Of a DNA stretch of 64,000 nt, positions 33,327-35,369 are shown piece by piece; position 1 is the first letter of the stretch, and every line of letters starts with the position of its first letter. Origin of the DNA: Duncaniella freteri. Lineage in GTDB: Bacteria; Bacteroidota; Bacteroidia; Bacteroidales; Muribaculaceae. Location: contig NZ_SJSA01000002.1 in NCBI RefSeq assembly GCF_004766125.1, positions 558,001-622,000 on the forward strand, in the 5' to 3' direction. A model generated the notes under the pieces. That model was given only the letters and a program-made list of their open reading frames with translations. It was not told the origin of the DNA and made no database searches. A program made the translations under genes and the position numbers.

Positions 33327-33653
33327 GGACAAATCGTTACCGTTTTTGTCCGGCAGGGAATAGGTAACGATTTAGTAACGAAACTTTGGCTTTTACCGTA
33401 CGAACACAGTTTTCATAAAAACAATCCTCTGGAGTTCGAGCGATTTGAAAAGCTACATCAAAAGCAAGAGTGGTTTCTTGATGCAGGGGATGAAGATGAG
33501 GGTGGTTTCAACAATGCGGTGGAATCATTGTCCAAGAAATTAATATCACATGGAATCTGCGTCGAGCATCATATATCGCCCGGACATCATAATCTTCAAT
33601 ATGTCAAAAGCAATATTCGGAAATACTTAATCTTTTACGGAAACAGGATATGA
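33327..33653 (+). pseudogene. 5'-truncated hypothetical gene
   Basis: The frame is open from 33327 to a TGA at 33651-33653 but has no ATG, GTG or TTG start in its first half. The later part looks like a genuine soluble protein (EFERFEKLHQKQEWFLDAGD, GGFNNAVESLSKKLISHG, YVKSNIRKYLIFYGNRI). Its stop overlaps the ATG of a following 26-codon frame by the classic ATGA, which also argues for real coding history. I do not recognise the family. A 10- to 11-bp inverted repeat (AAATCGTTACC at 33331-33341, GGTAACGATTT at 33363-33373) lies at its 5' edge, where the original start is missing. Confidence 0.45.
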
Positions 33654-33730
33654 ACGAGTTCAAACAATTAGGTTCACATACGGATTTTACCGCTAATAAT
33701 TGTATACTGCTATGGAAAGTCGCAAAGTAA
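33650..33730 (+). CDS. Very short open frame following the truncated gene
   Basis: A 26-codon frame (MNEFKQLGSHTDFTANNCIL to WKVAK) whose ATG overlaps the previous stop (ATGA). It is too short for a family call and may be part of the same decayed gene cluster. Confidence 0.25.
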   Translation: MNEFKQLGSHTDFTANNCILLWKVAK

Positions 33731-33855
33731 TCATAACTTGGATTGCCGTTACAGTAGCAGTGATGTTCGCATTGCCGTTTGCTGTGGCAGGATTCGCGTC
33801 GGAATGTTTGGGAATGGCTTTGTGTATGATATTGTTTCATGACTTCATAAGGTAA
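33712..33855 (+). CDS. Small membrane protein, 47 residues
   Basis: MESRKVIITWIAVTVAVMFA begins a strongly hydrophobic protein with one clear membrane segment and a second weaker one (CLGMALCMILFHDFIR). It overlaps the end of the preceding short frame by 19 nt. The family is unknown. A MITE begins 10 bp after its stop codon, so the gene itself is intact. Confidence 0.45.
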   Translation: MESRKVIITWIAVTVAVMFALPFAVAGFASECLGMALCMILFHDFIR

Positions 33856-33872
33856 TTGGAAATGGAAAGAAT

Positions 33873-34051
33873 GGGTCAGTCCGAAAACCATGTGGGTGAT
33901 TAATCGTAAACGATGAGTTATAATACTGGTACCCAATCAAGCGGTTGTCTGACATACTTAATTTATAATGCCTTAAAAGAATCTGTATTCTTACATTGCA
34001 ATATTGGAATTTTTTCAAAATATTATGCCCACAGGGTTTTCGGACTGATCC
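33873..34051. mobile_element. 179-bp MITE with 24-bp terminal inverted repeats
   Basis: The ends at 33873-33896 and 34028-34051 are inverted copies of each other, identical at 22 of 24 positions (core TCAGTCCGAAAACC). The element is flanked on both sides by the exact 8-bp direct repeat GAAAGAAT (33865-33872 and 34052-34059), a target-site duplication. No open frame of useful size lies inside. Eight-base duplications and GG-starting ends are seen in families such as IS1595 and ISL3, so it is probably mobilised by a transposase encoded elsewhere in the genome. Confidence 0.8.
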
Positions 34052-34103
34052 GAAAGAATCACTGATCAATGCATAGTCGCTCGGCAGTTTTCTTAAATAA
34101 TAC

Positions 34104-34144
34104 AAAAACACCCAATTTTACATTGTAGGGTGTAAAACTGGGTG
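34104..34144 (-). terminator. Terminator of the tRNA-Ser gene
   Basis: On the minus strand a 14-bp stem with one mismatch (CACCCAGTTTTACA / TGTAAAATTGGGTG, 34109-34144) is followed by TTTTTG. It lies 37 nt beyond the tRNA 3' end. Confidence 0.75.
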
Positions 34145-34180
34145 TAATTCTTGTAAACGATTGATTTTCAATGTTTATTG

Positions 34181-34267
34181 CGGAGAGACAGGGATTCGAA
34201 CCCTGGGTACCCGTAAGGGCACAACGGTTTTCGAGACCGCCCCGATCGACCGCTCCGGCATCTCTCC
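34181..34267 (-). tRNA. tRNA-Ser (anticodon CGA)
   Basis: An 87-nt class II tRNA. The acceptor stem is GGAGAGA at the 5' end with TCTCTCC at the 3' end and a G discriminator; CCA is not encoded. The anticodon stem-loop is GCGGT-CTCGAAA-ACCGT, anticodon CGA, reading UCG. The long variable arm (TGTGCCC-TTAC-GGGTACC region) and the T-arm CAGGG-TTCGAAT-CCCTG are complete. A -7 element (TACCTTTG on the minus strand, 34286-34293) lies just upstream. Confidence 0.93.
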
Positions 34268-34285
34268 TTGTGGTCAATTGCGGTG

Positions 34286-34293
34286 CAAAGGTA
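34286..34293 (-). promoter_or_regulatory. -7 element of the tRNA-Ser promoter
   Basis: TACCTTTG on the minus strand ends 18 nt before the tRNA 5' end. No TTG is found at the expected distance further upstream. Confidence 0.5.
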
Positions 34294-34352
34294 GAAATTT
34301 ATTTTTTAATTTCCATCTGTTTTTATTGAAAATTTTATGCTAAATTTGTGCT

Positions 34353-35369
34353 ATGATTACTACGCGACAAAATTTCGAGTTATCATCCGTGACCACATTT
34401 GCTATTCCAGCAAAATGCGGCTGCTATATCGAGTATGACTGCCCTGAGGATATCCCGTTCATACTCTCCACTTTACGCCCTGACGTTGACTTCATTCATA
34501 TCGGAGGAGGCAGCAATCTGCTATTCACATCCGATTTCCCTGGGGTTGTGGTCCACAGCGCGATCAAAGGGATAGAAGTGATTGACGAGACACCATCGGA
34601 AGTAAAGGTCATGGTCGGTGCCGGAGAAAAAATGGACGATTTCATCCTATGGGCTTGTGACCGCCGGCTTTGGGGCATAGAGAACCTGTCAGGAATCCCC
34701 GGAGAAGTGGGAGCATCTGCTGTGCAGAATGTTGGGGCATATGGCTCGGAAGCAGCCGATGCCATTGTTGAAGTCAATGCCTACGACCGAGAAAGGGAGG
34801 AATTTGTGACAATAGAATGCAACGATTGCCATTACGGCTATCGTGACTCAATATTCAAGCGACAGGAATTGCGGGGATGCATGATAATACACTCCGTTGT
34901 CTACAGGCTTTCAAAAGAACCGAAACCCAATATCAACTATCCCGCACTCAAGCACTTATTCCCCACCCCACCTTCCACTCCTTCACAAGTGCGCGAGGCG
35001 GTGATCAATGTTCGTAATTCCAAGCTCCCCGACCCCACTGAAGTGCCGAGCGCAGGAAGTTTCTTTAAGAACCCTGTGGTCAGCAATGAGCAACTGGAGC
35101 ATGTAATCGAAGTGGAAGGCAACGACTCATTCCCTCACTTCAATACCGAAGGTGGCTGGAAAATTCCGGCAGCGTGGCTGATTGACCGATGCGGGTGGAA
35201 AGGACATCGGTCCGGCAATGTGGCTGTATGGCATCTGCAACCACTGGTGATTATAAACCCTGACCGCAACGCTACAGCTTCAGAGGTATTGGATCTCGAA
35301 AATGCTATCAAAGCGTCTGTCAGAGAGAGATATGGCATCACATTGAATCCAGAAGTTGAACACATCTGA
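34353..35369 (+). CDS. murB: UDP-N-acetylenolpyruvoylglucosamine reductase
   Basis: A 338-residue flavoenzyme of peptidoglycan precursor synthesis, reducing enolpyruvyl-UDP-GlcNAc to UDP-MurNAc. Signatures are LSSVTTFAIPAKC, HIGGGSNLLFTSDFPGVV, ENLSGIPGEVGASAVQNVGA, YGYRDSIFK and the C-terminal AGSFFKNPVVS with the catalytic Ser. The ATG at 34353 gives the expected N-terminus. A perfect -7 motif, TAAATTTG (34341-34348), ends only 4 nt before the ATG, so the transcript may be leaderless. First gene of an operon with murA, relA, a lipoprotein, yihY and ridA. Confidence 0.95.
   Translation: MITTRQNFELSSVTTFAIPAKCGCYIEYDCPEDIPFILSTLRPDVDFIHIGGGSNLLFTSDFPGVVVHSAIKGIEVIDETPSEVKVMVGAGEKMDDFILWACDRRLWGIENLSGIPGEVGASAVQNVGAYGSEAADAIVEVNAYDREREEFVTIECNDCHYGYRDSIFKRQELRGCMIIHSVVYRLSKEPKPNINYPALKHLFPTPPSTPSQVREAVINVRNSKLPDPTEVPSAGSFFKNPVVSNEQLEHVIEVEGNDSFPHFNTEGGWKIPAAWLIDRCGWKGHRSGNVAVWHLQPLVIINPDRNATASEVLDLENAIKASVRERYGITLNPEVEHI

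Follow-up and report, generated by a model that had tools for sequence, protein, structure and literature searches.

The window analysed here is a stretch of 64,000 nucleotides from Duncaniella freteri. At 33873..34051 it carries a 179-bp element with no assigned strand, placed between the stop codon of a small open reading frame (ORF) and a hairpin behind a tRNA-Ser gene. The element is bounded by terminal inverted repeats of 24 bp, at 33873..33896 on the plus strand and 34028..34051 on the minus strand. The two arms are complementary at 22 of 24 positions (92%). A perfect 8-bp duplication, GAAAGAAT, flanks the element at 33865..33872 and 34052..34059 (both plus strand), a feature of ISL3 membership. 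An earlier note on this DNA had described the same structure at the same coordinates (33865..34059) as a 179-bp MITE with exact 8-bp flanks beside a tRNA-Ser gene, and each of these elements of the description was reproduced. The distances it gave, about 10 bp from a small gene and about 130 bp from the tRNA, were measured as 9 bp and 128 bp.

An inverted-repeat scan of the whole 64-kb window (24-nt arms matching at 22 or more positions, with their starts separated by 55 to 2000 bp) found this pair only. In 100 first-order Markov windows of equal size, the same scan detected 0 pairs, whether or not matching 8-bp flanks were required. The element folds into a strong long stem (z −6.1), as any element with such long inverted ends would. 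All Rfam matches at or near it are below the gathering scores. The two ORFs tested (88 and 50 aa) gave no Pfam match above the cut-off, in keeping with the lack of a transposase of its own. A promoter scan of 33700..34360 found none, fewer than in shuffled sequences. Since no recognised gene is disrupted and no promoter is matched, the effect of the element on its host is probably neutral.

Upstream of the element lies the remnant of an island (33400..33872, plus strand). It consists of the 3′ part of an esterase gene (33400 to approximately 33653) and a small hydrophobic ORF (33712..33855, plus strand), which is an island gene. The ORF is 47 aa long from an ATG at 33712 and 51 aa from a TTG at 33700, and ends 9 bp before the first GAAAGAAT. 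Its DNA has matches of 70–82% in the family genomes G181, G118, G198, G098, G062, and G071, which marks the ORF as a candidate for a conserved gene of the island. Downstream, the end of the island towards the tRNA (34060..34179, no strand) contains a hairpin at 34108..34145 with a T-tract after it on the minus strand; this hairpin is probably a terminator behind the tRNA gene. The tRNA-Ser(CGA) gene itself (34180..34267, minus strand) adjoins murB and is the probable integration target of the island.

Empty and occupied sites

We searched 297 genomes of the family with the island DNA that precedes the element and obtained matches in 15, the window's own included. Two candidates per genome were scored, and 12 loci from 11 of the 14 other genomes were examined. 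Two of these 12 loci continue across the site. They belong to G164 (genus g20) and G038 (genus g13), both from the family of the window's host but of different genera from it. The joined flanks in G164 match at 99.6% over 247 bp and contain GAAAGAAT once, without the element; 60 bp through GAAAGAAT and 25 bp beyond it are letter-identical to the window. In G038, they match over 270 bp at 84%, again with one GAAAGAAT and no element. Relative to these empty sites, the window has exactly 187 bp extra, which is the element plus one copy of the duplication. The empty sites in two genomes establish the element as a real insertion, and the flanking repeats that the earlier note took as a signature of transposition are thus substantiated.

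The element was also found in ‘Bacteroidales bacterium C35’ (G297, contig L074), in one copy with the same duplication and 1 difference in 179. The flanks of G297, with the element, and G164, without it, are identical (473/473 bp). The window flank matches each of them at 471 of 473 positions, the two mismatches being the same in both comparisons. That a site with the element and a site without it have identical flanks indicates that the insertion is recent relative to the spread of the island DNA. The case is a clean one, with the same island DNA present with and without the transposon in different genomes and the flanks identical.

The 195-bp stretch formed by the element and its duplications occurs once in the window's genome and, in a survey of 27 genomes of the genus, in 1 of 27, namely the window's own. 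An identical locus in all relatives, the pattern the earlier note had set against transposition, is not what the genus presents: the element is missing from 26 of the 26 other genomes. A single copy is unlike the typical MITE, for which several copies are usual, though not required.

The probable carrier island and its tRNA-Ser genes

The upstream flank of G297 matches the window from 33400 onward only. Before that point, G297 has the whole esterase gene, a GNAT acetyltransferase, a GyrI-like protein, a META-domain protein, an FMN reductase, a Toprim primase, and a mobilisation-like protein. The 467-aa mobilisation-like protein matched no Pfam or NCBIfam model; by eye, it resembles a Mob (mobilisation) protein. 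The window's genome has one relative of it elsewhere, 56% identical over residues 1–254 of 467. The tRNA-Ser gene at the end of the G297 island also has the anticodon CGA, and its sequence and neighbours differ from those of the window's tRNA-Ser. The same insertion is thus found beside two different tRNA-Ser genes.

A related island in G038 ends at a tRNA-Ser(TGA) gene and extends to a tyrosine integrase with matches to PF00589, PF13102, and PF17293 above the cut-off. Between the tRNA and the integrase are a YhcG/DUF1016 protein, an AAA protein, and the primase. No integrase was seen in G297, where the contig starts inside the island, or in the window's remnant. A search of G038 for a second att copy, in which the 18-bp end of the tRNA was allowed as many as 3 mismatches, located this end only in the tRNA itself within the 12 kb of L260; the contig ends approximately 450 bp past the integrase. 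The island of G164 is rearranged (L253, contig C94), with approximately 4 kb inverted. The esterase gene is cut by the inversion, its first 447 bp being separated from the remainder, and the two pieces overlap by 9 bp.

The tRNA-Ser/murB locus of the window recurs in G006 and G002, which belong to the same genus. Their similarity to the window begins at 34180 and 34178, respectively, which places the border of the island at the end of the tRNA gene. Against this border, the downstream match of G164 stops at 34084 (33 bp). The island flank has no match within the loci examined in G006 and G002. Since this locus lacks the island flank there, and since the islands of G297 and G038 have their ends at different tRNA-Ser genes, the comparison indicates that the window holds the last 0.7–0.8 kb of an island that is sited at different tRNA-Ser genes in different hosts. 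The island is predicted to be mobilizable.

In the hairpin behind the tRNA, both arms change together between G038 (locus L242; AATTTTACA/TGTAAAATT) and G297 (L074; GATTTTACA/TGTAAAATC). This covariation suggests a terminator that has been kept. The window's copy of the hairpin has one mismatched pair.

Coding insertion sequences with the same ends

The earlier note could not name the element and looked to a full-length insertion sequence (IS) with the same ends for a family. Such coding IS were found. The element arms match the IS ends of Bacteroides nordii, B. muris, B. stercorirosoris, and Parabacteroides massiliensis at 22–24 of 24 positions. The left IS end of B. nordii (L116) is 23/24 to both arms. 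The scores of the P. massiliensis ends (L139) against the left/right arms are 23/23 and 22/24, and those of B. muris are 23/23 (L147) and 22/24 (L071). The left arm is 23/24 to an IS end in B. nordii, B. muris (L147), and P. massiliensis, and the right arm is 24/24 to the second P. massiliensis end and to the B. muris end of L071. The IS end of Bacteroides sp. UBA939 is 20/24 to the arms.

The 1430-bp copy in UBA939 encodes two proteins that match NF049916 (ISAon1 upstream) and NF049917 (ISAon1 downstream) above the cut-off, with a further match to PF01610 (DDE_Tnp_ISL3); its flanks have no duplication. The IS of B. nordii is approximately 1.46 kb long with CTTTTAAG on both sides, and its proteins are likewise above the ISAon1 cut-offs (NF049916 and NF049917). 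This copy has a broken downstream frame and an altered right tip, such that its right end scores 10–11/24 when aligned without allowing for the indel. B. stercorirosoris has several partial copies at contig ends (L102, L043, and L081), and the copies of B. muris are partial as well. The P. massiliensis IS spans 3.1 kb and is interrupted by another insertion. In the B. muris, B. stercorirosoris, and P. massiliensis copies, the ISAon1-type protein was matched by tblastn only. A 22-aa transposase start gave no match to NCBIfam, the query being too short. The element inserted into the P. massiliensis IS sits between the two transposase frames, and its protein looks, by eye, like an IS110-type transposase.

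Because coding IS have the same ends, we assign the element, on sequence grounds, to the ISAon1 group of the ISL3 family as a non-autonomous member. The analysis thus gives the element a family name. Its interior resembles no IS seen, save for approximately 50 bp at the right end, which are weakly like Phocaeicola massiliensis repeats (E 4e-3 to 0.6). These repeats (L040–L042) have an end like GGATCAAGTCAAAAAGTGTGTGGGCATAATATTTTGAAAAAATTC, a composite of three, and may be another non-autonomous family of the ISAon1 group.

We also looked for the terminal 16 bp of the element. In the window's genome, the only exact occurrences are at the element's own two ends, with 8 other places at two mismatches each; the reversed pattern, used as a control, gave 3 places. 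No exact second copy besides the element was found in the window's genome, G297, G038, or G164, which is an incomplete draft (83%). On this basis, none of these four hosts has a matching IS. Places with one or two mismatches to the end number 8 in the window's genome, 3 in G164, 5 in G038, and 5 in G297; at the 8, 2, and 2 of them examined in the first three genomes, respectively, no ISAon1-type protein was found (within 1.5 kb in the window's genome).

Across the 297 genomes of the family, the exact 16-bp end is present in 5, the window's and four of genus g23 (18, 14, 4, and 1 copies). Of these 37 ends in g23, 28 were read and have 28 different 8-nt flanks; many lie at contig ends, as repeated IS give. 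The further copies with different duplications that had been anticipated are therefore seen not for the 179-bp sequence but for other elements whose ends are of the same kind. A pattern scan of genome contigs returned at least 120 stretches with the 16-bp end, of which 38 were inspected in sequence, and all loci collected were searched for the 24-bp end. Many of these stretches are in other phyla and are probably chance 16-mers.

An order-level search gave matches in 51 of 393 genomes (E up to 0.01, the two first candidates per genome being scored). In the 50 genomes other than the window's, the matches were at most 62 bp long, mostly in the AT-rich interior, and were treated as chance. The exception is G355, in which a 23-bp match to the element ends lies beside an ISAon1-type protein. 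Plasmid and phage collections held no full-length relative of the element; the phage matches (E 0.6) were taken as chance, and a scan of viral contigs for the 24-bp end found nothing.

Origin of the insertion and comparison with known elements

We are confident that the element is a miniature ISL3/ISAon1 derivative that was inserted in trans into a tRNA-Ser island, was carried with it to at least two hosts, and has been left in a decayed island in the window's host. An ISAon1-type transposase, made up of the upstream protein and the DDE protein, would bind the 24-bp ends in trans, insert the element, and duplicate 8 bp. Movement by such a transposase is the most likely route. The target would have been the terminal part of a mobile island whose integration sites adjoin tRNA-Ser genes, and the event would have taken place in another host, likely a member of the Bacteroidaceae or Tannerellaceae. 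The island, with the element and duplication fixed inside it, would then have entered at least two hosts; we infer this order, insertion first and carriage second. In the window's host, the island would later have decayed to a remnant of less than 1 kb. Because the same insertion occurs in two contexts, in the window and in G297, the element most likely jumped once into the island elsewhere and was carried along as a passenger, rather than jumping in the window's genome.

An independent transposition in the window's lineage, driven by its own more distant ISAon1 transposases, is improbable. The window's genome has 9 matches to the ISAon1 upstream protein. Perfect 8-bp duplications at three of these loci show that a transposase of this kind has been at work in that genome; three others have paired ends and no duplication, and in three no paired ends were found (one with a coding frame and two decayed). 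However, the ends of these elements, seen at 8 of the 9 loci, match the element arms at only 13–16 of 24 positions. G297, moreover, has the same insertion and the same duplication with a near-identical 473-bp flank in another context, for which a single event followed by transfer is a simpler account than the same event happening twice. Two decayed ISAon1-like copies of the window's genome (L208 and L209) are of a second type, with ends like GGGTCAGCGGATTTTTCCGGTGGG.

Slightly less probable still is that the element is the decayed remnant of a once full-length IS that suffered an internal deletion and can no longer move. Its single copy in both genomes that have it would fit such a remnant, but both ends are nearly intact and the G297 copy has the same 179 bp. 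The identical flanks of the occupied and empty sites also point to a recent insertion, with little time to delete 1.2 kb. That there is no transposon, and that an ancestral hairpin or regulatory RNA is flanked by a chance repeat, can practically be dismissed: the strong fold in its favor is expected of long inverted ends, two genomes have sites without exactly the 187 bp, which refutes it, the ends are common to coding IS, and no match to an Rfam family within the element attains the gathering score.

The case shows that a mini-element in single copy can be a real insertion of recent date, with a matching transposase that only other species are known to have. A broader reading, which we hold tentatively and think somewhat less probable than its opposite, is that orphan ISL3/ISAon1 mini-elements pass from one gut genus to another chiefly by being carried on tRNA-Ser islands, reach hosts without a matching transposase, and wait there for one. 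If so, the copy number in one genome would say nothing of how widely such an element travels.

The closest relatives are the coding ISAon1-group IS described above (L116, L147, L102/L043/L081, and L139), which share the 24-bp ends and, in B. nordii, the 8-bp duplication. They differ in having a transposase in two frames, with lengths of approximately 1.46 kb in B. nordii and 3.1 kb in P. massiliensis (only part of the IS being seen in the others), whereas the element here has 179 bp and no transposase. Two short elements share its terminal 16 bp, one of 270 bp in a sheep-gut Bacteroidaceae MAG (L064) and one of 94 bp in genus g23 (L014). Both have the end GGGTCAGTCCGAAAAC and perfect 8-bp flanks (GTTACTCC and CATATTTT, respectively), but their interiors are different and the right arm of L014 is poorly matched.

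Within the literature collection searched in full text, no paper has the word ISAon1. A duplication of 8 bp is described as the classical length for ISL3 (PMC7643977). A 187-nt ISL3-type MITE with 8-nt repeats has been published from Microcystis aeruginosa (PMC11448079). It resembles the present element in its ISL3-type ends, 8-nt direct repeats, stem-loop, and similar size. It differs in its 9-nt ends, which match GGCTCTTCG, in being repeated in the genome, and in its cyanobacterial host. MITEs of the ISL3 type are thus a kind already known, and what is new here is this member, with its unusually clean proof of insertion.
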